Part shown: positions 8,637 through 27,606 of the stretch, one piece after another
How positions within the stretch are numbered: the stretch's first letter is position 1
Layout of the letters: each line of letters begins with the position of its first letter
Origin: Verrucomicrobiota bacterium
GTDB taxonomy: Bacteria > Verrucomicrobiota > Verrucomicrobiia > Limisphaerales > UBA9464
Assembly (NCBI GenBank): GCA_947454705.1
Contig: CANGKZ010000051.1
Location: 1-34,920 of the forward strand
DNA: 34,920 bases
Direction of reading: 5' to 3'
Made by a program: the position numbers and the translations under genes
Notes under the pieces: generated by a model
Told to the model about the DNA's origin: nothing
Database searches by the model: none
Seen by the model: only the letters and a program-made list of their open reading frames with translations

Positions 8637-8651
8637 GCAACCGGTATGCCA
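8637..8651 (-). promoter_or_regulatory. Sigma-54 (-24/-12) promoter of the glf-glycosyltransferase unit
   Basis: The minus strand reads TGGCATACCGGTTGC followed by TT. GG and GC have exact sigma-54 spacing and both boxes match the consensus TGGCAYR-N4-TTGCW closely. The predicted start is near 8625, giving a 147-nt leader to the glf ATG. The site is downstream of the csrA-unit terminator, as expected for an independent promoter. It shares CGCGCTGGCAT with the fliO-upstream site. Confidence 0.75.
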
Positions 8652-8693
8652 GCGCGGTTTCAGACCCGGTTCAACGGGCTCCGGAAGACGTGT

Positions 8694-8737
8694 ATCTAAA
8701 ACGAAACGGGTCCCTTCCGGTGAGGAATGGGACCCGT
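8694..8737 (-). terminator. Intrinsic terminator ending the flgF-to-csrA unit
   Basis: ACGGGTCCC (8706-8714) and GGGACCCGT (8729-8737) form a perfect 9-bp stem with a 14-nt loop. On the minus strand it is followed at once by the T-rich tail TTTCGTTTT. It lies about 60 nt after the stop of the 83-aa gene. Confidence 0.85.
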
Positions 8738-8795
8738 GTTCAGCGACGCCTGCGGGCGTGCGGGCGTGCAGTCGGGCACGCGAGAGGATTCGGAA

Positions 8796-9047
8796 TCAGG
8801 CGGCGAGCAGGCGCGCGGTGCGGTCGGGATCGAGGGTGGCGAAGGCCGCGATGGCGGATTCGGGATCGGCGATCATGCGCGCGATGGCCGATGCGGCGAG
8901 CTCGGGAACCTGCAGGGCGTTGAGCGCGCCAACCACTTCAGCAGGTGCGGTGAGCGCTGCGGAGCCGTCGGCGGGACGGGCCGCGGGACGGACGGTCGCA
9001 GCGGGCGTCGGAAACGAAACGGAGGAGCCGCGTGATTCAACGAGCAT
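8796..9047 (-). CDS. Small uncharacterised protein after csrA (83 aa)
   Basis: I do not recognise a family. The frame runs from an ATG at 9047 that overlaps the 3' end of csrA by 11 bp, which suggests translational coupling; no Shine-Dalgarno is visible. The first 35 residues are rich in Ala, Pro and Ser. The rest (about 36-83) looks like an amphipathic helical domain rich in Ala, with a Pro-Glu-Leu-Ala-Ala-Ser stretch and a C-terminal Leu-Leu-Ala-Ala. Composition resembles neighbouring proteins rather than a shadow frame. It is the last gene before the terminator at 8706-8737. The same frame is open further upstream through csrA, but that part is an out-of-frame shadow. Confidence 0.6.
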   Translation of the reverse strand: MLVESRGSSVSFPTPAATVRPAARPADGSAALTAPAEVVGALNALQVPELAASAIARMIADPESAIAAFATLDPDRTARLLAA

Positions 9048-9321
9048 GGGAGAGCGGGATGGGGGGTTGGGGTGGGACTCCGGAGTTGCGATCCGGGAGG
9101 GCGGGTTTCGCAGGAAGGCGGGGCAGCGGAATCCGGCCGGGCGCGAGGGCCTGCTGGTTGTTGCGCTGGATTTCGAGATACACTTCCTCTCGATGGACTG
9201 GAACGTCTCCCGGCGCCTCGATGCCGAGTTTGACGACGTCCCCGTCAAGACGGACCACCTTGACCGTGATGCGGCCATCGATGATCAGGCTTTCGCCGGG
9301 CTTTCGTGAAAGGATGAGCAT
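9037..9321 (-). CDS. csrA: Carbon storage regulator CsrA with C-terminal extension
   Basis: CsrA is a dimeric RNA-binding protein that blocks translation at GGA-containing leaders; in flagellated bacteria with FliW it represses flagellin synthesis until FliW releases it. Residues 1-58 match the family: MLILSRKPGE start, then VKVVRLDGDVVKLGIEAP, and VHREEVY including the RNA-contacting Arg44. The remaining ~36 residues form a Pro-rich tail (PGRIPLPRLPAKPALP), longer than in short enterobacterial forms. FliW is known to act on the C-terminal extension of CsrA in Bacillus, so the tail may matter for that contact (inference). The ATG follows the fliW stop by 3 nt. Confidence 0.95.
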   Translation of the reverse strand: MLILSRKPGESLIIDGRITVKVVRLDGDVVKLGIEAPGDVPVHREEVYLEIQRNNQQALAPGRIPLPRLPAKPALPDRNSGVPPQPPIPLSHAR

Positions 9322-9324
9322 GCC

Positions 9325-9789
9325 TCACGATCCCACAGGGAGTGGGTGCTGAAGGTCAAGTCCAAGCGCGTTCAACGGGATCATTTGTTTGCCCGTCATG
9401 GTGTGCCGGTTGATCACGATCGGGCCCTTGAGATTGACGGTGGACTTCCCGTGCGCGCGCACGGTGACGATGTTGAGCAGCATCGCGTCCTCGGCGGATT
9501 CGAGTCCGATCCGCTCCACGTCGTCCGGCGCGAGGTCGGGCAAGTAGGTGCGGGTGATCTCCTCGGGCGCGATCACCACGAAGGCGAGGCGCGGATTGCC
9601 GGCGACCTGGAGCCACTGGAAGGGCGCCTCGTCGGGCACGGAGATCAACACCCAGTCGGTGTATTTCTCGAAGCCGAGCAGACCCTCGGGCAGTCGCACC
9701 GGCACCTCGGTGACGCGGGGAGCGGCAGTCATTGCCGGTTCGGATAGGGTATCGATCATGTGTGGGATGTGAAGCAGGCCGCGTACCAT
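9325..9789 (-). CDS. fliW: Flagellar assembly factor FliW
   Basis: FliW is a small cytoplasmic protein that binds either flagellin or CsrA and so couples flagellin translation to secretion. The 154-residue frame shows family motifs: LPEGLLGFEKYTDWVL (about 34-49), PFQWLQV, then the C-terminal TVNLKGPIVIN near 117. It sits directly before csrA, the classic partnership. Start choice is uncertain: the ATG at 9789 has GGAAGG about 12 nt upstream, while ATGs at 9759 and 9732 have no ribosome site. The conserved domain begins after residue 25, so any of them is possible. The 86-nt gap to flgL contains a perfect 6-bp hairpin. Confidence 0.94.
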   Translation of the reverse strand: MVRGLLHIPHMIDTLSEPAMTAAPRVTEVPVRLPEGLLGFEKYTDWVLISVPDEAPFQWLQVAGNPRLAFVVIAPEEITRTYLPDLAPDDVERIGLESAEDAMLLNIVTVRAHGKSTVNLKGPIVINRHTMTGKQMIPLNALGLDLQHPLPVGS

Positions 9790-9805
9790 TTATGATTCAT
9801 GCCTT

Positions 9806-9822
9806 CCGGAAGCGGGTTCCGG
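9806..9822 (-). other. Hairpin in the flgL-fliW gap
   Basis: CCGGAA (9806-9811) and TTCCGG (9817-9822) form a perfect stem with a 5-nt loop, ending 16 nt before the proposed fliW start. No T-run follows. It could influence fliW translation or mRNA processing; this is only a structural observation. Confidence 0.35.
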
Positions 9823-9875
9823 GCGTCATGGGGGATGCGTGGCCAGGGGTTCATGTGTGTGAGGGGAGTACCGGA

Positions 9876-10811
9876 TCAGTGAAGGTAATCCATGAGGGAA
9901 AGATTCAGGATCTTGGCCCCGGTTTGCAGGGCGACCTGATAGGCGGTCTGGGTCCGCGTGAGATCGGTCAGTGTTTCCGCGAGATCGACATCGGTGATGG
10001 ACGACGTGCGCTGCGCGACGGAGGCGGAGCGGCTCGCGTTGGCGCTGGTGGCGGTGTCGAGGCGGGCGATGGTCGCGGCGTTCATGCCGAGTTGATCGAT
10101 GAGATGATTCCCATCGGCAACGAGGCGTCCGGCGTCGGTGGAATTGATCGACGTAACATCCCCGGAACGCAGGTGGTCGCGGAGCGTGATGAGGTGCGCG
10201 AAGAGGTCGGCCCCGGTCCGGGTGTCGGCCAGAAGTCCGGTGGTTCCGCTTCCGGTGCTGTTGCTTCCGGGGATGCGGACATCGATGGATTCGCCCTGGG
10301 CGATGTCCACGTCGCCGGTGCCGTTGTTGCCCTGGTAGGTGATGCCGGTGATTTGTCCCGAGGAGTCGCGGGTGGCGGCGAAGGGTGCCTGGCGGGTGTT
10401 GGTTCCCGAGAGCAGGTAGCCGTCGCCGTACTTTCTGTTCGCCGTGTTGAGCGCCTGTTCCAGCAGCTGGTTCACTTCGGTGGCGTACTGGGAAAGATCC
10501 TGCGAGGCATTCAATCCCACGGCACGGGTGGCGATTTCTCCAGCGCGGTCGGCCACTGTTTGCAGGGATTGAATGGTCCCCTGAGTGACGGTGGCGACGT
10601 CGCGCTGGCGGGAGATGTTCTTCGCGAACTGCGCGAGCTGTTCGGTCTCGGCGCGGGAATCGAGCAGACGCTGGGCTCCGAGCGGATCCTGATCGGCGGA
10701 GGCGATGCGTTGTCCGGACGCGGCCTGACGCTGAAGGCGGACCTGGGCGGAACCGATATCGCCGAGCTGGCCAATGACCGTGTCGCTGAGTGCGTTAAAG
10801 CTGACCCTCAT
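9876..10811 (-). CDS. flgL: Hook-filament junction protein FlgL (HAP3)
   Basis: FlgL is an axial protein that joins the hook-side FlgK ring to the filament and is secreted by the flagellar export apparatus. The 311 residues have the flagellin-like N-terminal helix pattern (QRQAASGQRIASADQDP near 27-43). The C-terminal helix is also conserved (SITDVDLAETLTDLTRTQTAYQVAL). A Gly/Ser/Thr-rich variable middle is near 145-205. Length fits FlgL (about 300 aa) rather than flagellin, and it follows flgK by 5 nt. The start at 10811 has no clear Shine-Dalgarno. Confidence 0.95.
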   Translation of the reverse strand: MRVSFNALSDTVIGQLGDIGSAQVRLQRQAASGQRIASADQDPLGAQRLLDSRAETEQLAQFAKNISRQRDVATVTQGTIQSLQTVADRAGEIATRAVGLNASQDLSQYATEVNQLLEQALNTANRKYGDGYLLSGTNTRQAPFAATRDSSGQITGITYQGNNGTGDVDIAQGESIDVRIPGSNSTGSGTTGLLADTRTGADLFAHLITLRDHLRSGDVTSINSTDAGRLVADGNHLIDQLGMNAATIARLDTATSANASRSASVAQRTSSITDVDLAETLTDLTRTQTAYQVALQTGAKILNLSLMDYLH

Positions 10812-10816
10812 GAGTG

Positions 10817-12211
10817 TTAGCGTCCGAGGTTGATGACGGTGTCGAGCATGGTGGCCACGGTGGACATCACGCGCGCGGAGGCTTCGTAGGCCTTCTGGTA
10901 ACGGGTCAGATCGGAGAGTTCCTCATCCATCGACACGCCACTGACCGAGCTGCGTTGCTGGGTGAGCAGGTTGGTGACGGTTTTCTGATCCGCGAGATTT
11001 TGGGAGACCGACTGCAGGGAGCTGCCGATGCCGCCCACGGCGGCCGAGTAGCGCTGACCGAACGTGATAGATCCGAGCGAGGCCTGCGCCTGGTCGGCGA
11101 GGGACGCAATGGAGCGGGCCACCTGATTGTCGCCGGCGGCGCCGGAGGTTCCGGAGGCCTGGACCAGGGCGGGATTGGCGGCGAGTGCGGGATTCACCCG
11201 GATGTCCACCGCGGTGGATCCGCTGAAGAACGGCGCACCGGTGCTGCCGTCGAGCGCAAATCCCGGCCCATGGAGGGTGTTGACCTGATTGATCAGGCCG
11301 GAGGCGATGGCATTCACCGAGCTGCGGAGATCGGCGATGGCACCATCGCGGGCGGTGATGGTCCCGGCGAAGCGGCCGGAGGTCGGGTTGAGGGAAGTTC
11401 CCGCAATCTCGGCCCGGAGCAGGTTCATGCCGGAGCCGGGATCGTACACTTGAAAGCGGTCGGTGACCGAGGTCTCGGTGACGAGGGCGACTCCGCCCAC
11501 GCTGATGTTCACGCCGCCGGAGATTCCGGTGGAGGTGTCAAACTTCACCAGCGTTCCGAGTTCCTCGAGCTTCTGCTGGCGGGCGTCGCGGAGGTCGTTG
11601 GCGTTGCCGGAGGATCCGGATTCGGCGTTCTCGATCTGCCGGTTGAGCTTGGCGATGTCGGCCAGGAGGTCGTTGGCCGAGCTGACGTCATTGCCGAGCT
11701 GCGTGTTGAGATCGGACCGGAGGGAGCCGAGGCGCGCATCAACAGCTTGAAAGGTGTTGGCGAGGCTGGCGGCGTTCTGGACGACGGTCTGGCGGGCGGC
11801 GAGGTTGCTTGGATCGGCGGCCAGGGCCTGCCAGGAGTTGAAGAATCCGGAGAGACGCGCCGCAATGCCGGCGGTGGGAGTGCCGAGGGAATCGAGCTGT
11901 TCGCCGAGTGCGGATTGCGCGGTCTGAAGGGCGTCCTGTTGCGCGGTGAGCGAGCCCGTGTTGGCGGATTCGGTCACGATCTCACCATCGAGGATCTGAT
12001 CTCGGATCGAGGAGATCCGGGCGACGTACACTCCGCTGCCGACGGCGCCTTCCGAAGTCTGGATCGGCGAACTCGTCTGGAGCGACACGCGCTGGCGGGC
12101 GTAGCCGGCGTTGTTGACGTTCGCGATGTTGTGTCCCGCGACTTCGATGGCCTGTTGATTGGCCAGAAGGGCGCGTTGACCCAGGTTCAGAGTGGCGAAG
12201 AGTCCCAGCAT
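10817..12211 (-). CDS. flgK: Hook-filament junction protein FlgK (HAP1)
   Basis: FlgK forms the first junction layer on the hook. The 464-residue protein starts MLGLFATLNLGQRALLANQQ and carries the axial motif GHNIANVNNAGYARQRV (about 25-41). Its C-terminal signature is LTRYQKAYEASARVMSTVATMLDTVI. The frame is open 28 codons further upstream through a GTG-like start at 12295, but FlgK homologues begin at the chosen ATG and the upstream part overlaps the flgN end. No Shine-Dalgarno is visible before 12211. The chaperone gene flgN is directly upstream. Confidence 0.95.
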   Translation of the reverse strand: MLGLFATLNLGQRALLANQQAIEVAGHNIANVNNAGYARQRVSLQTSSPIQTSEGAVGSGVYVARISSIRDQILDGEIVTESANTGSLTAQQDALQTAQSALGEQLDSLGTPTAGIAARLSGFFNSWQALAADPSNLAARQTVVQNAASLANTFQAVDARLGSLRSDLNTQLGNDVSSANDLLADIAKLNRQIENAESGSSGNANDLRDARQQKLEELGTLVKFDTSTGISGGVNISVGGVALVTETSVTDRFQVYDPGSGMNLLRAEIAGTSLNPTSGRFAGTITARDGAIADLRSSVNAIASGLINQVNTLHGPGFALDGSTGAPFFSGSTAVDIRVNPALAANPALVQASGTSGAAGDNQVARSIASLADQAQASLGSITFGQRYSAAVGGIGSSLQSVSQNLADQKTVTNLLTQQRSSVSGVSMDEELSDLTRYQKAYEASARVMSTVATMLDTVINLGR

Positions 12212-12236
12212 GGTTGGATCGGGGTCTGGGGTGGAG

Positions 12237-12740
12237 TCAGCCGACGGCCTCGTAGATCCCGCGACACGGCAGAGCGAAACCGGGCCGGACACCATTGGAG
12301 CTGTAAACGGCCCCGCTGCTGGCGGAGTCGGGCGAGAGCGAGCGGATCAACCGCTGCATAAGGTCCATGGAACGGGTGAGCAGCAGGTGATTCTGCCGCG
12401 TGCGCTGCTGGACGCGATAAAGGAGCTGGTTGTTTTCATCGACCAGCGCCTGGAGCAATCCGCGGTAATCGCCGGGGGCAAGGCCGATGAGCTCGGTGAA
12501 GGGACACGAAGGCGAACAGCCAAGCTCAAGCGCGAGGCAGCAGCGCAGGCGGTCCCGGCGCTCGCGCAGTTCGTGGAGTGTTTCGGTCTCCGCCTCGATG
12601 CGAGCGACACAGCCGAGGAGATCCTCGCTGGCACGCTGCACAATGAGCCCCTGCTGCTGGTCGAGAAGCGCGAGCAGCTCGCCGTACTCCTTCAGCTCGT
12701 CGCGGAGGGCCTCAATCAGATTGGATAGAGTCTCGTTCAC
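12237..12740 (-). CDS. flgN: Export chaperone FlgN-like protein
   Basis: The 167-residue protein is almost all helical and charged (NLIEALRDELKEYGELLALLDQQQ), the pattern of FlgN-type chaperones that hold FlgK and FlgL before export. The assignment rests on fold pattern and on its place between flgJ and flgK, since FlgN sequences diverge strongly. The start is a GTG that overlaps the flgJ stop (GTGA), a typical coupled arrangement. A cluster of Cys (residues about 87-98) is unusual for the family. Confidence 0.8.
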   Translation of the reverse strand: MNETLSNLIEALRDELKEYGELLALLDQQQGLIVQRASEDLLGCVARIEAETETLHELRERRDRLRCCLALELGCSPSCPFTELIGLAPGDYRGLLQALVDENNQLLYRVQQRTRQNHLLLTRSMDLMQRLIRSLSPDSASSGAVYSSNGVRPGFALPCRGIYEAVG

Positions 12741-13090
12741 GGTGCGTCCTCAGTCTCGGAATGGTTGACGCCCAGCTCACGACCGAGCTGCGCCTGGAGC
12801 ACATGCGAGAACCCAAGCCCGCCCTGACTGCTGATTTGATCAGCCATCTGGGAGTTCATGAGATCCTGGTAAATGCCCGCAGAGGCCCCGGACTGGCCGA
12901 GGGACGTCTTGAAATGCGGTTTTTGCGCTTCGGAAAGAATCTGCCGGAGCAGGATCGACTCAAACTGACGCGACACTTCCTTGACCTTGTCCTCGGCCGG
13001 AATCGTCGAGCTGTGGGCCAGACGGTCGAGCGGCAGGTCCCGGACGGACACTGCGCGGTCGAGGGGCATCGGTTGGAATTCGATCGGCAT
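12737..13090 (-). CDS. flgJ: Rod-binding protein, FlgJ N-terminal type
   Basis: The 117 residues match the rod-cap domain of FlgJ: DKVKEVSRQFESILLRQILSEA (about 34-55), then DLMNSQMADQISSQGGLGF. The peptidoglycan hydrolase domain found in enterobacterial FlgJ is absent, so another lytic enzyme must open the wall for the rod. Its ATG overlaps the flgI stop (TGATG). It acts in the periplasm at the growing rod. Confidence 0.9.
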   Translation of the reverse strand: MPIEFQPMPLDRAVSVRDLPLDRLAHSSTIPAEDKVKEVSRQFESILLRQILSEAQKPHFKTSLGQSGASAGIYQDLMNSQMADQISSQGGLGFSHVLQAQLGRELGVNHSETEDAP

Positions 13091-14202
13091 CAGCGGAGGA
13101 TGAGTTCGGCCTGCAGGGCGCCGGCCTGTTTCATGGATTGGAAGATCGCCATCATGTCACGCGGTGTGACGCCGATCGCGTTCAGGCCCGTGGCGACGCG
13201 TTCAACCGTGGGCATTTCCGTGAGGATGATGAGGCGTCCCTTGGCTTCGCTGACCTTGGTGTCGGTCCTCGGGGCCGCGACCGTGTTGCCGGTCTGGCTC
13301 ATCGGGGCGGGTTGCGACACATCGGTGGACGAGGCGACGGTGATGGTGAGTTCGCCGTGCGACACGGCGCAGGCGGCGACCTTGATGCGCGAGGTGGCGA
13401 CGATGGTTCCCGTGCGTTCGTTGATGATGATGCGGGCCGGGATGTCGGGATCGACCTCGATGCTTTCGACGCGGGAGATGAAGCGGACCGGCGAACGTTC
13501 CTCGCCTTCGGGAACGCGGACCCGGACGGTCATGGCATCCATGGCTTCGGCGCTGCCGGGGAAGACCTGGTTGATCGATGCGGCCATTCGCGCGGCGGAG
13601 GTGAAGTCGGCATCGCGCAGGAGCAGTTCGAGGTGGCGGTCGCGAACGATCTCCGCGGGAATCTCTTTTTCAACCAGCGCCCCGCCGGGGATCTGCGCCA
13701 CGGTGGGGTGATTCTTCTGCACGGTGGCACCGCCCGAACCGGCGCTGCCTCCGATGAAGCCGCCGACCGCGAGCGGTCCCTGCGCGACCGCGTACACCTT
13801 GCCATCGGAGCCGATGAGCGGGGTTTGCAACAGCACGCCGCCCTGGAGGCTCTTGGCATCGCCCATGGAGGCGACGGTGACATCCATGCGTGAACCATTT
13901 TTGGCAAACGCCTTGATGTCGGCGGTAACCATCACCACGGCGACGTTCTTCGACGACACGGTGGTCGAGGGAACATTGATGCCGAAGCGTTGAAGCATGT
14001 TGGCCACGCTTCGCACGGTGTACACCTGGTCCTTGTCGCCGTCGTTGGCGAGACCGGTGACGAGTCCGTAGCCGAACAACTGGTTGTCCCGAGCGCCGGC
14101 AAACATGGCCAGGTCCTTGATGCGTGAGCCGATGGCGTGGGCAGCGGGAAGCGGTCCCAGCAACAGGGTCAGCAGAACGGAGACGAGGAGTCGAAGGCGC
14201 AT
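13090..14202 (-). CDS. flgI: Flagellar P-ring protein FlgI
   Basis: FlgI builds the P-ring bushing in the peptidoglycan layer. The 370-residue product starts with a signal peptide (MRLRLLVSVLLTLLLGPLPAAHA, cleavage near residue 23). It is followed by SRIKDLAMFAGARDNQLFGYGLVTGL, a strong family signature, and later NVAVVMVTADIKAFAKNGSRMDV. The C-terminal part includes RIIINERTGTIVATSRIKV and the end GVTPRDMMAIFQSMKQAGAL. Length is normal. It sits between flgH and flgJ, 42 nt after flgH. The ATG lacks a Shine-Dalgarno. Confidence 0.97.
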   Translation of the reverse strand: MRLRLLVSVLLTLLLGPLPAAHAIGSRIKDLAMFAGARDNQLFGYGLVTGLANDGDKDQVYTVRSVANMLQRFGINVPSTTVSSKNVAVVMVTADIKAFAKNGSRMDVTVASMGDAKSLQGGVLLQTPLIGSDGKVYAVAQGPLAVGGFIGGSAGSGGATVQKNHPTVAQIPGGALVEKEIPAEIVRDRHLELLLRDADFTSAARMAASINQVFPGSAEAMDAMTVRVRVPEGEERSPVRFISRVESIEVDPDIPARIIINERTGTIVATSRIKVAACAVSHGELTITVASSTDVSQPAPMSQTGNTVAAPRTDTKVSEAKGRLIILTEMPTVERVATGLNAIGVTPRDMMAIFQSMKQAGALQAELILR

Positions 14203-14244
14203 GGGATCAGAAGTTCGGACGTGAGGAAAAAAGGGCGGTCGGAA

Positions 14245-14892
14245 TCAGAAGGGAGCGACCTTGTCCCAGGCCTTGTGGAACCAGCCCTTGCCCTGGGAGT
14301 CGGAGACGGCGCCCTTGGAGATGTAGCGGATGGTGGCGTCGGCGATGTTGTAGCTGAACACGGTGTTGTTCGCGGCGACGTCGTCGGAGCGGACCACGCC
14401 GCGGAGGATTGCGTCCTGGGTTTCTCCGGCGAAGGAGGTCTTGCGGCTGCCCTCGATCACGAGGTTGCCGTTGGGCATCACGTCCACGACGCGCACAGAG
14501 ATGCGGGCGGTGATGGTTTCGGAATTGCTGATCTTGCCGCCGCCGTCGTAGGAGCTGCTGCCATTCACCTTGAGCGCGGGATACTGGCCGCCCTTGGTCA
14601 GGAATTTGTCCTGCGCGGCTCCGAAGAGGAAGCTGCTGATGGAGCTGTCGATGCCGGTCTTTTTGGACGTGGAGGTGCTGTTGTCCTTGCTGGCCGTGTT
14701 GCTCTCCTGCACGAGGATGGTGAGGATGTCACCGACGTTGCGGGCGCGGACGTCGGAAATGATCGAGCGGCTCGAGGCATCGTGCCACAGCGAGTCGCCG
14801 ACCGCCGGAGCGGCGAGCGTGATCACAAAGGCGGTGCCGACGGCGAGCGCGGCGCGGGTGAGATCAGAGCGTGACGATGACAGTGTCTGCAT
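14245..14892 (-). CDS. flgH: Flagellar L-ring protein FlgH, without a lipobox
   Basis: FlgH forms the outer-membrane L-ring around the rod. The 215 residues include SLWHDASSRSIISDVRARNVGDILTILVQE, the central GGQYPALKVNGSSSYDGGGK and the C-terminal DVMPNGNLVIEGSRKT, then VVRSDDVAANNTVFSYNIADATI. The N-terminal hydrophobic segment (about 14-32) is a signal peptide but has no cysteine, whereas enterobacterial FlgH is a lipoprotein. The start at 14892 has GGAAAGG six bases upstream, one of the few clear ribosome sites here, and overlaps the flgA end by 29 bp. The frame is open further upstream, but that part is a shadow of flgA. Confidence 0.95.
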   Translation of the reverse strand: MQTLSSSRSDLTRAALAVGTAFVITLAAPAVGDSLWHDASSRSIISDVRARNVGDILTILVQESNTASKDNSTSTSKKTGIDSSISSFLFGAAQDKFLTKGGQYPALKVNGSSSYDGGGKISNSETITARISVRVVDVMPNGNLVIEGSRKTSFAGETQDAILRGVVRSDDVAANNTVFSYNIADATIRYISKGAVSDSQGKGWFHKAWDKVAPF

Positions 14893-15883: not shown

Positions 15884-15919
15884 CGACAAGGGGGAGTGGG
15901 CCGGCGGGGTCAGATCGAA

Positions 15920-16705: not shown

Positions 16706-16733
16706 GGGCGGTGGGGATGGGGTTCAGTCGGGT

Positions 16734-17477: not shown

Positions 17478-17490
17478 GCCATCCGGTGAA

Positions 17491-17505
17491 GCACCGGCCG
17501 TGCCA
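17491..17505 (-). promoter_or_regulatory. Sigma-54 (-24/-12) promoter of the flgF-csrA unit
   Basis: The minus strand reads TGGCACGGCCGGTGC followed by TT. The -24 box is a full match to TGGCACG, and the -12 box GTGCT differs from TTGCT at one base. GG-N10-GC spacing is exact. The predicted transcription start is near 17479, about 2 nt before the flgF ATG, implying a leaderless message or a start site slightly different from the rule. Confidence 0.75.
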
Positions 17506-17568: not shown

Positions 17569-17604
17569 GGCAAATCCTGCCAGAACCACCGGGGGGATTT
17601 TGCC
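17569..17604 (-). other. Inverted repeat in the motB-downstream gap
   Basis: GGCAAATCC (17569-17577) pairs with GGATTTTGCC (17595-17604) with one bulged base. It lies in the 166-bp gap between the 105-aa gene and flgF, after the hairpin at 17613-17638. No T-run follows on the minus strand, so termination of unit B here is possible but unproven. Confidence 0.35.
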
Positions 17605-17612
17605 GACTGGAT

Positions 17613-18718: not shown

Positions 18719-18754
18719 GAGGTGTCGAAATGGGACTGCAACCGGAACGCGCGC

Positions 18755-19612: not shown

Positions 19613-19621
19613 GGGAGGAAA

Positions 19622-20425: not shown

Positions 20426-20439
20426 AGGTCAGAAAAGGG

Positions 20440-20655
20440 TTAATTCTTGGCCGGTTGGCGAAGGCGTGCGGCCTCTTGCGCTGCACGGAAGCCGACGAGC
20501 CACTGGCGCATCCACCAACGGAGCATCAAGCCACAGACCAACGCCGACGCGGACGCTCGCCAAAAGACGACCGACCAGGGGCAGCGTTGAACCAGGGCAA
20601 GACTCATCCCGAGGAGGAATCCAACCAGTCCGCCGAGCATCATCGATTTCTTCAT
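20440..20655 (-). CDS. Small uncharacterised membrane protein (71 aa) between flhF and fliA
   Basis: I recognise no family. The product has two hydrophobic segments (about 7-22 and 28-47) and a basic, Arg-rich C-terminal tail, so it is probably an inner-membrane protein with both ends cytoplasmic. It overlaps the flhF stop by 4 nt (ATGA) and lies 14 nt before fliA, so it is translated within the operon. AAGGTGA about 5 nt upstream is a weak ribosome site. It sits where flhG is found in many polar-flagellate clusters, but it is not an FlhG ATPase. Confidence 0.75.
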   Translation of the reverse strand: MKKSMMLGGLVGFLLGMSLALVQRCPWSVVFWRASASALVCGLMLRWWMRQWLVGFRAAQEAARLRQPAKN

Positions 20656-21881
20656 TCGATCACCTTCGGGTTCGGCACAGCAGCCGGCTTGCCAGCCATC
20701 ATTTCATTGGGGTTTTCGCGGGTTCGGCCGCCCACAGAGGGCAAAAGACGCTGAACCAGGCCCCGGGCGTCGGCCCGGGCGAAGTCACCGGGAATATTCT
20801 GCCCACCCGCCAAAAAGCCCGGTCTGCAATTCGTGCCTAGTAACAGATTCCAGATCTTCCCCGCCCGGGTCTCCTCATCGAGGTGGGTGAAACTGATGTC
20901 CACGAGGGGCAATCCGGAGAAGGCGCGCACCTGTTTCTGCAGGATTGCCGCGTCGTAAGAGGCGTTGAGCACCAGATGCAGCCGGGGCGAGGGGAGGCGC
21001 TGAAGCAGGGCATCGAGGGAGGCGAGCCACGAGGCGTCATCGGCCGCACCCCCGGGGAGATCGATCAACACCAACCGACCCGGATCGAGCCCGATGGCAT
21101 CCTCCGGCAGGGTGCGGAACACCGGCACGGAGAGGATCTCGCCGTAGACGCTGAGCACCTCGGCGGTGTTGGAGGTGGAACCGTCGAGGCGCCACACTTC
21201 GGCGGGACGCCCCTCCACAAGCACGGCTTGGGTGAGCCATTTGCAGACGCAGGTGGTCTTGCCCACGCCTGGAGGTCCCACGAACACGTGAATGCCCGAC
21301 TCGGGCGAAACCGGGGCCGGATGCAGCCTTGGGAGAATCAGCGTTTCGAGCGCTTCGGCGACGGCTTCCAATTCCTCCTGCAGCGTTGCGGGGGGAACTT
21401 CGCCGAAGCGGCTTCGCACCTGGTCCATCACGCGATGCGCATGGCGGGGCAGCAACCCCGCGCGCTCGAGCACCGCGCCCGCGCGCCAGCCACCGTGCGC
21501 TGGGGCCTGCGCGACGCCATCACCACCGGTGCCTTCAGAAAACGGTTCGCGACACGCGACGGATCTGCGGATCTCCGCGAGTTCATCGCGAAGTTTGGAA
21601 AACATTTCGTCACGGACCGTGGAACCTCCAGCGGTGGCGGAGGAAGCCGCCGCGGCAGCCAGGCTTGGCGCGCTGGGCAGAACCGGAACCGGAGGCGCGG
21701 GAGGCGGCGTCGGCTCAGGGACGTGGGCCAGCACCTCGATGCGCGGGCGACGCCAGATGCGCGCGAGGCCGTCCACCGAGAGGCGTCGCACGCTCAACAC
21801 CACGGCATCCGGCCCGAGCCGGGATCGCACCTGGGACACCGCATCGGCCGCGGAATCAGCGATGAAGGTATGGAGTTGCAT
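20652..21881 (-). CDS. flhF: Flagellar SRP-type GTPase FlhF
   Basis: FlhF controls the site and number of flagella in many polar-flagellate bacteria. The 409 residues have the B-domain start (MQLHTFIADSAADAVSQVRSRLGPDAVVLSVR), a Pro/Ala-rich linker (about 54-85), then the N- and G-domains. The P-loop GPPGVGKTT is at 202-210. The motif equivalent to DTAGR reads DLPGG (about 274-278) and the region normally TDTYRIGA reads WRLDGSTSNTA, so nucleotide hydrolysis motifs are degenerate. A THLDE motif replaces TKLDE. It lies 29 nt downstream of flhA. No flhG is present in the window. Confidence 0.9.
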   Translation of the reverse strand: MQLHTFIADSAADAVSQVRSRLGPDAVVLSVRRLSVDGLARIWRRPRIEVLAHVPEPTPPPAPPVPVLPSAPSLAAAAASSATAGGSTVRDEMFSKLRDELAEIRRSVACREPFSEGTGGDGVAQAPAHGGWRAGAVLERAGLLPRHAHRVMDQVRSRFGEVPPATLQEELEAVAEALETLILPRLHPAPVSPESGIHVFVGPPGVGKTTCVCKWLTQAVLVEGRPAEVWRLDGSTSNTAEVLSVYGEILSVPVFRTLPEDAIGLDPGRLVLIDLPGGAADDASWLASLDALLQRLPSPRLHLVLNASYDAAILQKQVRAFSGLPLVDISFTHLDEETRAGKIWNLLLGTNCRPGFLAGGQNIPGDFARADARGLVQRLLPSVGGRTRENPNEMMAGKPAAVPNPKVIE

Positions 21882-21910
21882 GGGATGAACTCAGGACTCT
21901 GGAGAAAACC

Positions 21911-24019
21911 TCAGGCCTCGGGGAGTGCGAGCAGACCAGCGCTCTTGACCTCCACCTTGGAAGGCACCTCGGCGTACGAAATCACGGAAAGATCGCTGAA
22001 CGTCGCCTCAAAGAACCGGCGGAATGCGAGACGTAGGTTCGGTGCGCAGAGCACCAGCGGCGGATGTCCGGCGGCGAGCATCTGCTGGATCAATTTGGAA
22101 AGATTATCGACCACCGTACGGGCCATGCGCGGTTCGAGCAGGAGCGCGACCTCGTTCGAGGACTGCCGCACGCCCTGCAGGAGCTGTTGTTCCAACCGGG
22201 GATCGAGGTGGATGCACCAGACGGCACCATTGTCGCCCTGGAACGGCTTGATGATCTGCGAGCACACGGCACGACGCGCCTGCTCGGAGAGTTCATCCGG
22301 ATTCTTGGTGATGGTGGCGTAGTCGCTGACGCGCTCGAGGATTCCGGAGAGGTTCCGGATTGAGACGCCCTCGGTGAGCAGGTTCTGCAATACGCGCTGC
22401 ACTTGGCCGACGGTGAGCTGGGCGGGGATGAGTTCATTCACCACCGTCGAATGCGTCTGCTTCAAATTGTCGAGGAGCTGCTGCACGTCCTGCCGGCTGA
22501 TGATCTCGGCGCAGCGGCGGCGGACGGTTTCGGAAAGGTGCGTGACCAGCACCGCGGCGGAATCCACCACGCTGTAGCCGCTCACTTCGGCGGCACGGCG
22601 TTCGGTCTCCGCGATCCAGGTGGCCGGGAGTTGGAACACCGGCTCGACCGTCGGAATGCCCTTCACCTGCACGCGGCTGCTGGTGGCATTCATGGCGAGG
22701 AAATATCCCGGCATCACCGATCCCTGCGCGACAGGCTGGCCCTTCAACAGGAAGCGATATTCGTTCGCACCAAGCTGCAGGTTGTCGCGAAGGCGGATCG
22801 GTGGAATGAGGATGCCGATCTCCTGGGCGAAGGTGCGTCGGACGCCAGTTACGCGCTCGAGCAGATCGCCGCCGCGGCGCGTGTCGGCCAGGCTCACGAG
22901 TCCGTATCCGAGCTCGATCTGAAGCGGATCCACCGCGAGCAGCGACTCGATCTTATCCGATCCCGCCGCTGCACCCGCGCCGGCTCCGGCAGCCGCGCCT
23001 CCTGCGGCCTTCTCCCCTGCCCCGCGGGCGGGTTCAGCAGCGGTGCCGGTCTTGGCCTGTTTTTTGTTCAGCTTCTTGGCCAGGTAGCCGGTGGCAACCG
23101 CCATGAGGCCGAAGGGAATCATCGGCATGCCTGGTACGATGGCGAAAATCACCATCATCACGGTGAGCAGCGTGAGCGCGCGCGGATACGACAGGAGCTG
23201 GTTGCCCAGTTCCTCGCCAAGACTGGCCTTCGACGCGGCGCGGGTGACCAACATACCGGCCGCGAGCGAGATGATCAGCGCGGGCACCTGCGACACGAGA
23301 CCGTCGCCGATCGACAACAGCGTATACCGTTGGAGCGATTCGGTGAGACTCATCCCGCGCTGCGCGATGCCGATGACGAATCCGCCGACGATGTTGATCA
23401 GCGTGATCAACACGGCCGCGATGGCATCGCCACGGACGAACTTGCTGGCACCGTCCATGGCGCCGTAGAAGTCGGCTTCCTGCTCCACCTTGCGGCGGCG
23501 GGTGCGGGCCTGTTCCTCATTGATGACGCCTGCGCCGAGTTCGGCGTCGATGGCCATCTGTTTGCCCGGCATGGCGTCGAGGGTGAACCGCGCCGCGACT
23601 TCCGCGATACGGCCCGCGCCCTTGGTGATGACCGAGAAGTTGATCAACACGAGGATGGCGAACACCACGAGACCGACCACGTAGTTGCCCCGAACGACGA
23701 ACGTGCCGAAGGCCTCAATGACGTGACCCGCGTTGCCATCGAGCAGGATCAACCGGGTGGAGGCGACGTTGAGCGCAAGTCGGAACAGCGTGACGAACAG
23801 CAATAGGGACGGGAACCCGGAGAACTCCGCGGGTTCACGCACGTAAAGGATCACCAGCAGGATCAGCAGTGACACGGCGATGCTCACCGTGAGCATCAGA
23901 TCCAGCAGGAATGGCGGTACCGGCAGGACCAGCAACATCACCGTGCCGAACATGCCGGCCACGAGCCAGAGATCGCTCTGCTTGAGGCGGGCGGAGATGG
24001 CGGCCATGAGGCCGCTCAT
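21911..24019 (-). CDS. flhA: Flagellar export gate protein FlhA
   Basis: FlhA is the large ring subunit of the export gate. The 702 residues carry about eight membrane segments in the first half. The FHIPEP family core is present (GFPSLLLFVTLFRLALNVAS, then VVFAILVLINFSVITKGAGR and EQEADFYGAMDGASKFVRGDA). An Ala/Gly-rich linker (AGGAAAGAGAGAAAG) joins it to the cytoplasmic domain, which contains the GLVSLAD region. The start at 24019 gives a family-typical N-terminus (MSGLMAAISARLKQSDL); the frame is open 36 codons further, overlapping flhB. An ATG at 24007 is an alternative. No Shine-Dalgarno. Confidence 0.97.
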   Translation of the reverse strand: MSGLMAAISARLKQSDLWLVAGMFGTVMLLVLPVPPFLLDLMLTVSIAVSLLILLVILYVREPAEFSGFPSLLLFVTLFRLALNVASTRLILLDGNAGHVIEAFGTFVVRGNYVVGLVVFAILVLINFSVITKGAGRIAEVAARFTLDAMPGKQMAIDAELGAGVINEEQARTRRRKVEQEADFYGAMDGASKFVRGDAIAAVLITLINIVGGFVIGIAQRGMSLTESLQRYTLLSIGDGLVSQVPALIISLAAGMLVTRAASKASLGEELGNQLLSYPRALTLLTVMMVIFAIVPGMPMIPFGLMAVATGYLAKKLNKKQAKTGTAAEPARGAGEKAAGGAAAGAGAGAAAGSDKIESLLAVDPLQIELGYGLVSLADTRRGGDLLERVTGVRRTFAQEIGILIPPIRLRDNLQLGANEYRFLLKGQPVAQGSVMPGYFLAMNATSSRVQVKGIPTVEPVFQLPATWIAETERRAAEVSGYSVVDSAAVLVTHLSETVRRRCAEIISRQDVQQLLDNLKQTHSTVVNELIPAQLTVGQVQRVLQNLLTEGVSIRNLSGILERVSDYATITKNPDELSEQARRAVCSQIIKPFQGDNGAVWCIHLDPRLEQQLLQGVRQSSNEVALLLEPRMARTVVDNLSKLIQQMLAAGHPPLVLCAPNLRLAFRRFFEATFSDLSVISYAEVPSKVEVKSAGLLALPEA

Positions 24020-24053
24020 TGCGGTGGCTTGGGGAGGATTCACGAAATCAGTT

Positions 24054-25133
24054 CTATTGGCCCGCCGTGTAGTAGCGGTACCGGTTGGTGCGATAGACGA
24101 AGGCCAGGATCTCGGCGACGGCCGCAAACAGCTGGACCGGGATCTCGCCGCCCACGCGGCCGTGCTTGAACATGAGCCGGGCCAGCGGTTTGTTTTCCAC
24201 GATCGGGACCTGGTGCTGCTTGGCGATCTCGCGGATTCGCAGCGCGTTCAAACGGGTGCCCTTGGCGATGATCATCGGAGCCTTCATCGCCTTCCGGTCG
24301 TACCGGAGCGCGACCGCGATGTGCGTGGGGTTGGTCACCACCACGTCCGCCGTCGGCACATCCTGAAGCATCTGGCGCTGCGTCCGCGCGCGACGGCGGC
24401 GACGCTGCTGGGCCTTGACCTGCGGATTGCCTTCCGAGCTCTTGTTCTCTTCCTTGACCTCCTCACGGGTCATCATGAGCTTCTTGTACCGGGTCCAGAA
24501 TTGGTACCCGTAGTCGGCCGCCGCGATCACCGCGAGGGCCACCAGGATGCGGGTGACCAGGCTCTCGGCGGCGCTCATGAGGAAGCGGCCGATGCGGAAG
24601 AGGTCGCCGGAGGTGTAGAGGATCGGGTCCTTCAACAGCTCCTGCACCTCGGACCAGGCGAATCCCCCGATGATCGCCAGCTTGATGACCGCGTTGAGTG
24701 CGGGGACGAGTCCCTGCACGGAGGCGATGCGGGTGAAGCCGGAAACGGGATTCAACTTCTCCCAATTCAAACTGAGCGCCTCGCTGGCGATGTTGAACTG
24801 GTTCTGCGCGGCACTGACCGCGGCCCCCGCGGTGCCCACGGCGAGCACCACCGGGCCGGCGCAACCGGTGACGGTGAGCATGGCCTGCGCGGTCTGACCG
24901 GGAAGCGAATCGCGCGTGATGGTCACATCGTGCAGATGGTACAGCACGCCGGACATGACCTCGGAAAACTGAGTCCACATGGTGGGCCCGAACATTCGGA
25001 TCGCCCCCAGCCCGGCGAACATCACCGCCACGGATTCCAGATCGGGCGTGCGAGCGATGTCGCCGCGATCGGCGGCCTCACGCAGCTTTTTCGCTGATGG
25101 GGCCTCTGTTTTCTCTCCTGCATCTTCAGACAT
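24054..25133 (-). CDS. flhB: Export specificity switch protein FlhB
   Basis: FlhB controls the switch from hook to filament export. The 359 residues begin SEDAGEKTEAPSAKKLREAA, have four membrane segments (about 35-55, 85-108, 142-162, 188-210) and a basic stretch (QQRRRRRARTQRQ). The autocleavage motif NPTH lies at 268-271 with the usual flanking VVVTNPTHIAVALRYD. It is downstream of fliR by 27 nt. The cleavage residues suggest normal switch function together with FliK. Confidence 0.97.
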   Translation of the reverse strand: MSEDAGEKTEAPSAKKLREAADRGDIARTPDLESVAVMFAGLGAIRMFGPTMWTQFSEVMSGVLYHLHDVTITRDSLPGQTAQAMLTVTGCAGPVVLAVGTAGAAVSAAQNQFNIASEALSLNWEKLNPVSGFTRIASVQGLVPALNAVIKLAIIGGFAWSEVQELLKDPILYTSGDLFRIGRFLMSAAESLVTRILVALAVIAAADYGYQFWTRYKKLMMTREEVKEENKSSEGNPQVKAQQRRRRRARTQRQMLQDVPTADVVVTNPTHIAVALRYDRKAMKAPMIIAKGTRLNALRIREIAKQHQVPIVENKPLARLMFKHGRVGGEIPVQLFAAVAEILAFVYRTNRYRYYTAGQ

Positions 25134-25160
25134 GCGCGTGAAGGTTCGGGTTCAGGAGGG

Positions 25161-25919
25161 TTAGGTGCCTCCGATGAGGCTGGACACCTTCGCCAGGTCC
25201 TCGGGGAGGCGGCGGAGCAGGTTGGAGATGTGTTCCGCGGTGAGAAACACCGTCATGCCGAACACGCTGAGTCCGGTGAGAATCCGGATTGCGAAACTGT
25301 CGGTGAACACGTTCAACGCCGGGACGGCGCGACTCAGGAGCGCGAACACCATGGTGATCACAAACGAGACCGCCATCAGCGGCGTGGCCATCTCGACACC
25401 AATGGAAAAAATCACGCTCGAGCGACGGATCAGGTCGTTGGCCAGCGCCTCACTCACGTGGAATCCGCCAATGGGCACCAGGGTGTAGCTCCGCACGATC
25501 GCGGCGATCATCCAGTGGTGGAGATTGAGGGCGAACATCAGCATCAGCCCGAGCCACTGCAGCAGCGTGGTGGGGACATTGGTGGCGCTGTTGGTCAGCG
25601 GGCTGAAGGCGGAGGACATCTGCAAGCCGATGTCCGTGGTGATGAGCGCGCCCGCGACTTCGATGGTGAACACCATCATGCGGCAGACGAATCCCAGGAT
25701 CAGTCCGACGCCGAGCTCCCCAGCCACCGCGGCCACGAACCGGTGGTCGCCGACGGGGGTGGGTCCGGTGGCAATGGGTCCGGTGACAAGCGACAGCACC
25801 AGCGCCAGCGCCACACGGACGCGAGGTGGGACATTGGTCATGGAGAATGCGGGCAGGACCGCCATCAGCGCGCCCACCCGCACAAACACCACGAACCAAT
25901 GGATCAGAAAATCATTCAT
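25161..25919 (-). CDS. fliR: Flagellar export gate protein FliR
   Basis: FliR is an inner-membrane part of the FliPQR export channel. The 252 residues are very hydrophobic with about six membrane segments. Family features include VRVGALMAVLPAFSMTNVPPRVRVALALVLSL near the start, ELGVGLILGFVCRMMVFTIEVAG in the middle and VFALLSRAVPALNVF near 203. It follows fliQ by 46 nt. The ATG has only a weak AGGCG upstream. Confidence 0.97.
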   Translation of the reverse strand: MNDFLIHWFVVFVRVGALMAVLPAFSMTNVPPRVRVALALVLSLVTGPIATGPTPVGDHRFVAAVAGELGVGLILGFVCRMMVFTIEVAGALITTDIGLQMSSAFSPLTNSATNVPTTLLQWLGLMLMFALNLHHWMIAAIVRSYTLVPIGGFHVSEALANDLIRRSSVIFSIGVEMATPLMAVSFVITMVFALLSRAVPALNVFTDSFAIRILTGLSVFGMTVFLTAEHISNLLRRLPEDLAKVSSLIGGT

Positions 25920-25965
25920 GTCGCCTGGTCACATCACCCACGTCATGCAGCGAAGCAGCGCCGCA

Positions 25966-26235
25966 TCAGCGGACCATTTCCGGCAGCTTCTGGAGCATGG
26001 CCTGGGTGAAATCGAGGATCGACCGGGTGAGCCACGGCAGCAGCACCAGCAGCAGCCCGCTCACTGCGAGGGCCTTGGGGACGAAGGAAAGCGTTTGCTC
26101 ATGGATGGACGTCACCGCCTGGAAGAGGCTGACGGCGATGCCGACGGCCATGGCAGCGGACAACAGCGGCGTGGCGAGCGCGACGGCCTGGACGATGAGG
26201 CCCTTGATGAGTTCGATGGCGAGTTCTGGAGTCAT
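25966..26235 (-). CDS. fliQ: Flagellar export gate protein FliQ
   Basis: FliQ is a small two-helix subunit of the export channel. The 89 residues contain two membrane segments (about 13-38 and 53-73), with SLFQAVTSIHEQTLSFVPK between them, which is the family signature. Length matches the family. It lies between fliP and fliR. Confidence 0.97.
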   Translation of the reverse strand: MTPELAIELIKGLIVQAVALATPLLSAAMAVGIAVSLFQAVTSIHEQTLSFVPKALAVSGLLLVLLPWLTRSILDFTQAMLQKLPEMVR

Positions 26236-26268
26236 GAAAAGAAGGGGATGAAAAGATGCGGGACGAAA

Positions 26269-27057
26269 TCAGCCGCCGAAGCTGAGGACGAGCGACCGGA
26301 CCACCAGCTGCCAGCCATCCACGAGGACGAACAGGAGCAGCTTCAGCGGAAGGGAAACGGTGGCGGGCGGCATCATCATCATGCCGAGACTCATGAGCAC
26401 TGCGGACACCACCATTTCGATCAGCAGAAACGGCAGGAAGAGCAGGAAGCCCATTTGGAACGCGGTCCGGAGCTCGCTGATGATGAAGGCCGGAATGCAC
26501 ACCTTGAGCGGAAGGTCTCCGGGCGAGGTCGCGCCGATTTTGGCCAGATCCCCGAAGAGCTCCACATCCTTGGGACGCGTCTGGCGGAGCATGAACTCGC
26601 GGATCGGACGCGAGGCCTCGGCCATGGCGCGCTCTCCGTCGATGCGTTTTTCCATGTAGGGCTGGAGCGCGTTGGTATCGATGCGCGACCAGACCGGCTC
26701 CATGATGAAGAAGGTGAGGAACAGGGAGAGGCCGATGATGATCTGGTTCGACGGCGTACCTGGCAGCGAGAGCGCGGAGCGGAGGAAGGAGAGCACGATC
26801 ACGATCCGCGTGAAGCTGGTCATGAGCAGCACGATCGACGGGGCGAGGCTCAGGAGCGTCATCGCGAACAACACCTTGATGGCGCTGTCGAGTTCCGCGG
26901 GCTGCGTGACGCTGCCCGGGTCCATGGAAAGTTTAACCGCGGGGATGCTCAGCGTCTGCGCGGACGCGGTGGAGGTCGCCCCGCCCCACGCGAGCATCGC
27001 GAGGACGAGCACGATCCACAGGGAGAACCGGCTGGAGAAAGTGGGGGAGGGCTTCAT
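26269..27057 (-). CDS. fliP: Flagellar export gate protein FliP
   Basis: FliP forms the core of the export channel with FliQ and FliR. The 262 residues start with a signal peptide (cleavage near residue 33, STASA), a known feature of FliP. Family segments follow: LLSLAPSIVLLMTSFTRIVIVLSFLRSAL, then TPSNQIIIGLSLFLTFFIMEPV, and the C-terminal FLPFLLIEMVVSAVLMSLGMMMMPP. The ATG overlaps the fliO stop by 4 nt (ATGA). Confidence 0.97.
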   Translation of the reverse strand: MKPSPTFSSRFSLWIVLVLAMLAWGGATSTASAQTLSIPAVKLSMDPGSVTQPAELDSAIKVLFAMTLLSLAPSIVLLMTSFTRIVIVLSFLRSALSLPGTPSNQIIIGLSLFLTFFIMEPVWSRIDTNALQPYMEKRIDGERAMAEASRPIREFMLRQTRPKDVELFGDLAKIGATSPGDLPLKVCIPAFIISELRTAFQMGFLLFLPFLLIEMVVSAVLMSLGMMMMPPATVSLPLKLLLFVLVDGWQLVVRSLVLSFGG

Positions 27058-27572
27058 GAACGAAGGGGCATGACGGCCGGAGTGGAGGCATTGACGCTGC
27101 CGGGGAATTCAGCGACGCCGTCGAGATGTTCCTGAAATGAGGCACCCCGGGAGACCGAGCCGAGACTCGCGGAGGGAATCGGGGCAAGCATCTGGATGCC
27201 GGCCGGGCCGACCGCGAGGAGCCACTCGCGCTGGTCGCAGGCCACGAGACACAACGCCTGGCGCTGGCCGACGGAGCGGGTTTCAACGATTTGGAGTCGG
27301 GCCTGGGAAGTCTTCCAGCTCCCGAGCAACCGCGAGCGGCGCAGCCAGCGTCCGCCGGCCATCACCGCACCGATGATCACAAGCAGGCCTCCCAGCATCC
27401 GAATCGATGCAGCCGCCATCGAAGGGGCCCCGGGCGCGGCCGCTGCGGCGGTCGTGGCGACGGGGTCCGCGGCAAGCAGGACGCCCGCGGGGAGGAGGGC
27501 GAGCACCGGCAGGCAGCGCATCACCGTGGAGCGCAGCGACCGGATCAAAAAAGAGGCACGAGGACCATTCAT
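27054..27572 (-). CDS. fliO: Export apparatus protein FliO
   Basis: FliO assists FliP assembly. The 172 residues have a signal-like hydrophobic segment (about 18-35) and a membrane segment (about 55-73, SIRMLGGLLVIIGAVMAGGRWL). A FliO-type cytoplasmic beta region follows (ARLQIVETRSVGQRQALCLVACDQREWLLAVGPAGIQML). The ATG at 27572 was chosen over an open extension to 27785, which would run through the fliN terminator. An internal ATG at 27521 (MRCLPVLALL) is possible and would have a normal leader. It heads unit B, right after the sigma-54 site. Confidence 0.9.
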   Translation of the reverse strand: MNGPRASFLIRSLRSTVMRCLPVLALLPAGVLLAADPVATTAAAAAPGAPSMAAASIRMLGGLLVIIGAVMAGGRWLRRSRLLGSWKTSQARLQIVETRSVGQRQALCLVACDQREWLLAVGPAGIQMLAPIPSASLGSVSRGASFQEHLDGVAEFPGSVNASTPAVMPLRS

Positions 27573-27591
27573 GGTACGTGCCCACCTGCAA

Positions 27592-27606
27592 GCAGGGGGG
27601 ATGCCA
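27592..27606 (-). promoter_or_regulatory. Sigma-54 (-24/-12) promoter of the fliO-motB unit
   Basis: The minus strand reads TGGCATCCCCCCTGC followed by TT. GG-N10-GC spacing is exact; the -12 box CTGCT has one mismatch to TTGCT. The start would be near 27580, about 8 nt before the fliO ATG. It begins only 7 nt after the fliN terminator stem ends and shares CGCGCTGGCAT with the glf promoter. Confidence 0.7.

Follow-up and report, generated by a model that had tools for sequence, protein, structure and literature searches.

The stretch of DNA considered here (the window) is contig C51, 34,920 bases long, of a 5.45 Mb metagenome-assembled genome (MAG) of the Verrucomicrobiota lineage in 80 contigs. 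It carries a flagellar gene supercluster and several sites that resemble promoters for the alternative sigma factor sigma-54 (RpoN). The MotA protein is 92% identical to that of two 'Verrucomicrobia bacterium' contigs, 62-63% identical to that of other Verrucomicrobiota MAGs, and about 50% identical to that of Opitutales-type MAGs. The supercluster is on the minus strand and begins with a fliK-like frame without a Pfam match, followed by flgD, a flgE-like gene, fliL, fliM, and fliN, and then by fliO and the units in Table 1. Within these units, fliQ and motB were named by their position and by tblastn matches to relatives. The name flgF also rests partly on position, because the flgF equivalog model scored below its cut-off (158.6 vs 178.5). 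A short open reading frame (ORF) between flhF and fliA is called gene X, and its window copy matched no family in Pfam above cut-off and none in NCBIfam. Homologs of gene X are membrane-like proteins of 70-93 amino acids with a conserved RWW motif, and they adjoin fliA wherever they were found.

Sigma-54 promoters are recognized by a GG at -24 and a GC at -12, 10 bases apart, within a consensus resembling TGGCAY-N5-TTGCW. A first-pass annotation of this DNA had placed three such sites on the minus strand at unit boundaries, before fliO, flgF, and glf (sites 1, 2, and 3), and direct reading of the sequence confirmed all of them. Each site has the -24 GG and -12 GC of a sigma-54-dependent promoter with GG-N10-GC spacing, and each ends in TGCTT. 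Sites 1 and 3 also have the word CGCGCTGGCAT in common, as had been stated. In the -12 region, sites 1, 2, and 4 have CTGC, GTGC, and CTGC, respectively, in place of TTGC. Site 4 reads TGGCAA and not TGGCAY, which is why it was overlooked. The three sites were thus correctly placed, but the division of the window into four transcription units has to be revised, as the export unit ends at flhF and the X-fliA-motA-motB unit is preceded by a separate site, site 4. A fifth flagellar-linked site, CGGCACGCCTGCTGCTT, lies 27 nucleotides (nt) before flgB on contig C67. The genome therefore holds five flagellar-linked sites, four of them in the window, and at least five units.

Table 1. Features of the window (contig C51). 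Sites are sigma-54-like and dyads are putative; PWM, score with the dyad position weight matrix; aa, amino acids.
Feature	Position	Strand	Basis or remark
Terminal overlap with contig C67, 123 bases, exact	34798..34920	.	last 123 bases of C51 = first 123 of C67
Variant dyad CGGAAGAACTTTCCG, 54 bp upstream of site 1	27647..27661	-	PWM 9.6 vs null 95th percentile 7.9
Intrinsic-terminator-like hairpin and T run, between fliN and site 1	27613..27638	-	-18.9 kcal/mol, z -3.9, 0/200 shuffles
Site 1, -24/-12, before fliO, TGGCATCCCCCCTGCTT	27590..27606 (read 27606-27590)	-	same site in congeners G001, G007 (loci L078, L079)
Unit fliO fliP fliQ fliR flhB flhA flhF	20652..27572	-	Pfam; fliO starts at 27572 or farther in
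Weak dyad GGGCAGAATATTCCC, 109 bp upstream of site 4	20790..20804	-	PWM 10.8
Site 4, TGGCAAGCCGGCTGCTG, in 3' end of flhF, 25 nt before gene X	20678..20694 (read 20694-20678)	-	
Gene X	20440..20655	-	71-aa orphan membrane-protein-like ORF, heads the X-fliA-motA-motB unit
fliA motA motB, 3' of gene X	17975..20425	-	fliA, motA by Pfam; fliA starts at 20425 or farther in
Dyad GGCAGGATTTGCC, 76 bp upstream of site 2, putative activator site, strong	17569..17581	-	
Site 2, before flgF, TGGCACGGCCGGTGCTT	17489..17505 (read 17505-17489)	-	-12 C 14 nt from ATG at 17477
Unit flgF flgG flgA flgH flgI flgJ flgN flgK flgL fliW	9325..17477	-	Pfam
flgF, heads the rod/ring/junction unit	16734..17477	-	FlgE/F/G domains; NCBIfam FlgEFG subfamily above cut-off
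csrA, 94 aa, 3' of fliW	9037..9321	-	family search
Intrinsic-terminator-like hairpin upstream of site 3	8700..8738	-	-25.1 kcal/mol, z -4.6, 0/200 shuffles
Site 3, before glf, TGGCATACCGGTTGCTT	8635..8651 (read 8651-8635)	-	kept in congener G001, locus L210
Inverted repeat GGCA-N6-TGCC, glf leader	8567..8580	-	G001: arms identical, spacer different
Dyad GGCACTCTTTGCC in glf leader, 105 bp downstream of site 3 start	8534..8546	-	first dyad base changed in G001
glf, UDP-galactopyranose mutase-like	7372..8478	-	Pfam GLF over cut-off; TIGR00031 below (215.9 vs 303.75)
Multidomain glycosyltransferase, 2359 aa, second gene of the glycan unit	286..7365	-	several glycosyltransferase and TPR domains

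The pattern TGGCAYN6TGCTT occurs three times in the window against a shuffle mean of 0.05, and the shorter TGGCAYN6TGC also three times against 0.68; for neither did any of 100 shuffles reach three. A looser pattern, TGGCACN5TTGCT with up to two mismatches, was not enriched in the window (9 vs 7.8). Three of the five matches to TGGCAYN6TGCTT in the whole genome are those in the window. The other two, 458 and 205 nt ahead of called frames that resemble RCC1-type repeat proteins, are probably chance matches.

Relatives have sites at the starts of the corresponding units. Homologs of the window and C67 genes were located there by tblastn, and [TC]GGCA-N7-TGC was searched from 100 nt upstream to 30 nt inside each start. 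A site was found before flgF in 23 of 28 related loci, before gene X in 24 of 25 (24/24 of those passing a length filter), and before flgB in all six, the present genome being one of them. Before flhB, a site was present in 10 of 40 loci, and in seven of the 10 at 19-24 nt. Genes inside the units had practically none: motA (0/61), motB (0/63), fliR (0/40), fliA (0/38), flgG (0/26), fliN (0/25), and flgI (0/22). Single matches were seen before fliQ (1/39), flhF (1/41), fliI (1/6), and fliW (1/6). The first-pass annotation is supported in this respect, with sites at unit starts and hardly ever before operon-internal genes. In the 22 flgF and 25 gene X sites, the searched positions are set by the pattern itself, but the base after TGC was not part of it and is T in all 47. 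Most gene X sites (20/25) read TGGCAA, as in the window. The fliO site is kept in the closest congeners and in some other loci at other spacings, and CGGCA forms occur near fliO in a sister genus. Ten further sites lie about 650-760 nt before flgD in relatives and probably precede a fliK-like gene.

Several of these sites are very close to the start codon. In sigma-54 promoters, transcription starts (+1) 12 nt after the -12 C. The flgF sites are 14-19 nt from the start codon in 21 loci, which gives a predicted leader of 2-7 nt, and the flgF mRNA should therefore be nearly leaderless. In two further flgF loci (Candidatus Eisenbacteria), the distance is 56 and 60 nt. Predicted leaders are 8-17 nt for gene X, 7-12 nt for flhB (seven loci), and 13-22 nt for flgB. 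For archaea, the word leaderless has been used for a 5' untranslated region under 8 nt (PMC10783764). Ordinary leaders are predicted in the same genus, where the sites lie 97-103 nt before glnK-like genes, 104 nt before a glnA-like gene (leaders of about 85-92 nt), and 86-87 nt before prepilin-like genes. In the present genome, such sites precede a glnK-like gene (97 nt; locus L015, contig C3) and a prepilin-like gene (87 nt). The first-pass annotation had expected the sites to be confined to flagellar units, and these examples speak against it. The glnK-, glnA-, prepilin-, and rtcB-like names are readings of the sequences. An rtcB-like gene adjoining another activator has its site at 14 nt, which shows that a short distance is not confined to flagellar units either. 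A four-base Shine-Dalgarno match was found at 80 of 337 starts without a sigma-54 site, which marks the lineage as sparing with this signal. This agrees with passages of PMC10783764, in which members of the Verrucomicrobiota are named as 'SD-scarce'. The idea that unit-leading genes are poorer in Shine-Dalgarno matches was rejected, as 26 of 57 starts with a site had the match. The matches at flgF say little because they mostly lie before the predicted +1.

A conserved inverted repeat was found upstream of the sites. All pairs of four- and five-base arms with gaps of 0-15 were scanned at 77 promoters, and GGCA-N5-TGCC was the top upstream signal, present in 23 of the 77 upstream regions against 0.35 expected from resampled sequences. 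It occurs in 9 of 22 flgF, 4 of 6 flgB, 5 of 7 flhB, 2 of 6 fliO, 2 of 25 gene X, 1 of 10 flgD, and 0 of 1 glf promoters, and its fuller form is CGGCAA-N3-TTGCCG (15 bp). The weight matrix for the dyad was trained on 18 of the same promoter sequences. Putative upstream activator sites are thus indicated for the flgF, flgB, fliO, and flhB sets; in the window, the signal is weak at site 1 and confounded by coding at site 4. The flgB dyad of the present genome is strong and lies 67 bp upstream of its site. At the flgD-set sites the dyads are mostly weak, with 3 of 10 above the null 95th percentile, and dyads downstream of sites are weaker than those upstream.

The best dyads of 41 flgF, flgB, fliO, and flhB promoters lie at about 54, 66, 77, 88, 100, 109, and 119 bp from the site. 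Their distances have a period of 10.8 bp (R 0.81), which 0 of 5000 simulations equalled; the period was chosen from 9.5-12.5 bp, and the simulations made the same choice. Gene X (overlap with FlhF coding), flgD (no signal), and glf (no upstream dyad) were left out of this set. A less circular test is given by the 21 promoters of these four sets without the exact dyad, which all scored above the null 95th percentile of 7.9 and had a period of 11.0 bp (R 0.76, 0/5000 simulations). Phasing was also found with unique distances only (P 0.0032) and with distances outside 62-69 bp, of which 14 were left after close relatives had been merged manually (P 0.0004). A4/T4 tracts are abundant in the 50-bp stretch that stops 5 bp short of the site: 40 promoters together have 44 of them, compared with 17.7 (at most 31) in resampled sequences. 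The G+C content drops to 0.44 in the last 25 of these 50 bp.

The dyad and the site were also searched as a composite. With a gap of 40-70, only the flgF and flgB promoters were recovered in the present genome and none in the reversed control; with a gap of 71-101, there were none and one, respectively. The same scan was made in 145 genomes as a second less circular test, although these include genomes that supplied promoters. Spacings of 64-68 account for 38 of 98 matches in the 66 genomes with flhA and for 3 of 56 in the 79 genomes without it. The 60 remaining matches in genomes with flhA are weakly phased (mean cosine 0.27).

The rpoN gene, on which the first-pass annotation depended, is present in the genome. 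It was found in 136 of the 145 genomes and is therefore not specific to flagella. In three relatives (contigs G003:C72, G005:C6, and G026:C233), rpoN and flhA are no more than about 17 kb apart. The first-pass annotation also proposed an activator of the FleQ/FlrC/FlgR type encoded outside the window, and a plausible gene exists on the adjoining contig C67. The exact overlap of the two contigs suggests that the assembly is broken inside the fliK-like gene. Contig C67 carries this activator gene, flgB, flgC, fliE, fliF, fliG, fliH, fliI, fliJ, a MotE-like gene, and a frame truncated at the contig end, which possibly represents the beginning of the fliK-like gene. Family searches confirmed the identity of the activator, FlgB, FliH, and FliJ; the remaining names come from reading of the sequence. 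The candidate activator (C67, 12010-13563, minus strand, 517 amino acids) has a receiver domain, a Sigma54_activat domain with GAFTGA, and a Fis-type helix-turn-helix, which are the features of the NtrC family. The AtoC and NtrC models came closest, and the protein fell below the cut-off of all 25 listed among 117 NCBIfam models, a list with no FleQ, FlrA, or FlrC model. It scored 388 of 750 bits with FlbD and 337 of 750 bits with FlgR, far below both cut-offs, and the FlgR type is therefore not supported. It is an NtrC/AtoC-like response regulator.

Orthologs of this gene track flhA. With an ortholog line of 460 bits, which was a chosen value, 69 genomes pass; a partial, 70%-identical match in one genome (G077) was excluded. 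An ortholog is present in 61 of 66 genomes with flhA and in 8 of 79 without it (Fisher p 1e-25, ignoring relatedness). In six loci of a sister genus (L089, L090, L094, L096, L098, and L103), the flhA region holds another enhancer-binding protein, 65-67% identical to that of L128. Several of those genomes have two or three FlhA matches, perhaps from a second flagellar or secretion system.

Taken together, the sites are quite probably RpoN promoters of a flagellar regulon, on which the C67 activator would act through the dyad. The computation shows the sites with their positions and conservation, the rpoN gene, the dyad and its helical phasing, and the domains of the activator and its co-occurrence with flhA. 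From these, we infer the binding of the activator to the dyad, the transcription from these sites by sigma-54, and the order of events. The NtrC-type response regulator would be activated through its receiver domain and would bind the 15-bp dyad (C)GGCAA-N3-TTGCC(G), which is located on one helix face at about 54-119 bp upstream. Its AAA+ domain with the GAFTGA loop would then remodel RNA polymerase-sigma-54 across the short linker rich in A/T tracts. The units started in this way would be the flgB unit, fliO-flhF, X-fliA-motAB, flgF-fliW/csrA, and probably, as the fifth, glf-glycosyltransferase. Several transcripts would begin almost at the start codon, and FliA from the X-fliA-motAB unit would presumably then serve the flagellins.

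Several results weigh against this interpretation. The bare consensus is not enriched genome-wide, with 67 matches to TGGCAYN6TGC against 113 to the reversed pattern and 5 against 4 for the TGCTT form; the evidence therefore rests on position and conservation and not on the consensus. Of the 65 loose matches (out of 67) that could be placed with a gene caller based on a simple codon score, 42 are inside called genes, contrary to the view that matches would be less common there. The flgF site is absent in 5 of 28 loci, namely L045, L052, L053, and L055 (Opitutaceae/Opitutia MAGs) and L058 (Candidatus Synoicihabitans). In the gene X locus dropped by the length filter (L039), the 128 bases before the gene contain no site, and a site is close to fliO in only one of six loci passing the filter. 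The position of the fliO dyad scores 4.6 and 6.5 in the congeneric loci L078 and L079, both outside the promoter set and below the 7.9 line. The dyad before gene X encodes the GQNIP residues of FlhF (by sequence reading); it is not independent evidence, because its conservation may be due to coding. No upstream dyad was found at the glf site. Composite totals are mostly chance, and only the peak at 64-68 stands out: with a gap of 40-70, genomes with flhA gave 62 matches against 31 reversed and those without it 24 against 38, and with a gap of 71-101, the 145 genomes gave 68 against 67. The 38 peak matches are spread over 13 genera, a single genus supplies 19 of them, and at least three are inside called genes (L238, L242, and L243). 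Finally, eight genomes without flhA keep an ortholog of the activator, and in five genomes with flhA none was detected.

Three alternatives have to be considered. The sigma-54 promoters may merely boost read-through, so that the main flgF or gene X transcript starts upstream with an ordinary leader and nothing is leaderless. Gene X does start at the end of flhF, and no terminator-like hairpin was found before site 2 (z -0.5), unlike sites 1 and 3; the tight spacing of 14-19 nt in 21 flgF loci, however, suggests that the start codon is used from the sigma-54 promoter, and this alternative is unlikely. Somewhat less likely still is that the sites are sigma-54 promoters driven by one or more other enhancer-binding proteins, the gene beside flgB having a different regulon. 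The genome (G000) encodes nine further strong Sigma54_activat matches (>160 bits) and four weak ones, the pairing of the C67 activator with the dyad is inferred, and both the lack of an upstream dyad at glf and the orthologs kept without flhA would fit; the location of the gene immediately ahead of the flgB promoter and the tendency of its orthologs to accompany flhA argue for the C67 activator. Chance matches to the consensus in a G+C-rich genome, which the genome-wide counts and the gene-internal matches given above would favor, are a most improbable explanation in view of the dyad, its helical phasing, and the presence and spacing of sites conserved at homologous starts and nearly absent before other genes, which is strong evidence for flgF, gene X, and flgB and leaves chance in a weak form for site 3, kept in one congener only.

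The leader predicted from site 3, up to the glf ATG, is 147 nt long, with GGAGG before the ATG. In congener G001, the site reads TGGCATACCGGCTGCTT and precedes a glf with 94% identity and the start of a glycosyltransferase. The 2359-amino-acid protein of the window is possibly an enzyme for flagellin or surface glycans. The glf leader contains an upstream ORF (8621-8469, 50 codons and a stop, of the same length in G001), which was rejected as coding because the differences are spread evenly over the codon positions (20, 16, and 18), against 0, 2, and 22 in the first 150 nt of glf. Of its 51 positions, stop counted, 20 are identical in G001. The link between the glf site and the C67 activator is weak. 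Joint firing of the glycan unit with the flagellar units, which had been suggested at first, is not supported in that form and is unproven because the glf site lacks an upstream dyad.

Other signals were also sought. The hairpin before site 1 has a similar counterpart in L078 and L079. Rfam gave no match in the window at gathering thresholds. Sigma-70-like promoters were absent from 7300-20700 (1.4 expected) and from 20600-34920 (1.6 expected), and a simple sigma-28 pattern had no match before the flagellins or on the minus strand of the window. Two flagellin genes are located on contig C1, and the simple pattern found no sigma-54 site near their starts, with one poor CGGC match 310 nt upstream. 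The filament is therefore probably a later, FliA-dependent step.

The proposed arrangement resembles known systems. In Pseudomonadota (FleQ/FleR, FlrA/FlrC), Campylobacterota (FlgR), and Caulobacter (FlbD), RpoN and an enhancer-binding protein start mid-level flagellar operons, as proposed here. FliA is downstream in several of these sigma-54 regulons. Unlike the FlbD and FlgR systems, the C67 activator is below both NCBIfam cut-offs, belongs to another phylum, and is accompanied by gene X, which has no family match. For Desulfovibrio vulgaris, of another phylum, sigma-54-dependent flagellar operons are described with two activators, the response regulator DVU1063 and the FlrA/FleQ-like DVU2894; the motif given for DVU2894 is yGTCA-N6-TGACr and not GGCAA-N3-TTGCC (PMC4641369). 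Leaderless mRNAs from promoters abutting the ORF are described for Deinococcus-Thermus (PMC12340547); the promoter element is likewise beside the start codon, but it is a -10 region there and a sigma-54 -12 element here. A survey of sigma-54 regulons states sigma-54 control of motility in Opitutia, and its passages give no activator, dyad, phasing, or start-codon spacing for these genes (PMC12316311). Sigma-54 control of motility in the phylum is thus already in print, and the activator, the dyad, and the spacing are refinements. No publication on these three was among the matches listed, which does not establish that they are absent from print.

The full picture would be that of lineage-wide sigma-54 flagellar units with promoters set against the start codon, a flgF leader of 2-7 nt, a dyad at whole helical turns, nitrogen genes with ordinary leaders, and X as a new flagellar protein. 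As a whole, this picture is tentative, and it is possible rather than probable. No experimental work on flagellar regulation in Verrucomicrobiota was found in literature searches, and the analysis names a likely activator, a probable DNA site, and target units for flagella in this phylum. The phased dyad would provide a natural series of enhancer spacings for the helix-face rule of short sigma-54 enhancers. If the picture is true, flagellar output would be tied through the short leaders to the initiation mode of leaderless-mRNA translation, a layer of control that the literature examined does not describe for sigma-54 flagellar systems. The short predicted leaders thus raise a testable question about how flagellar operons are translated.

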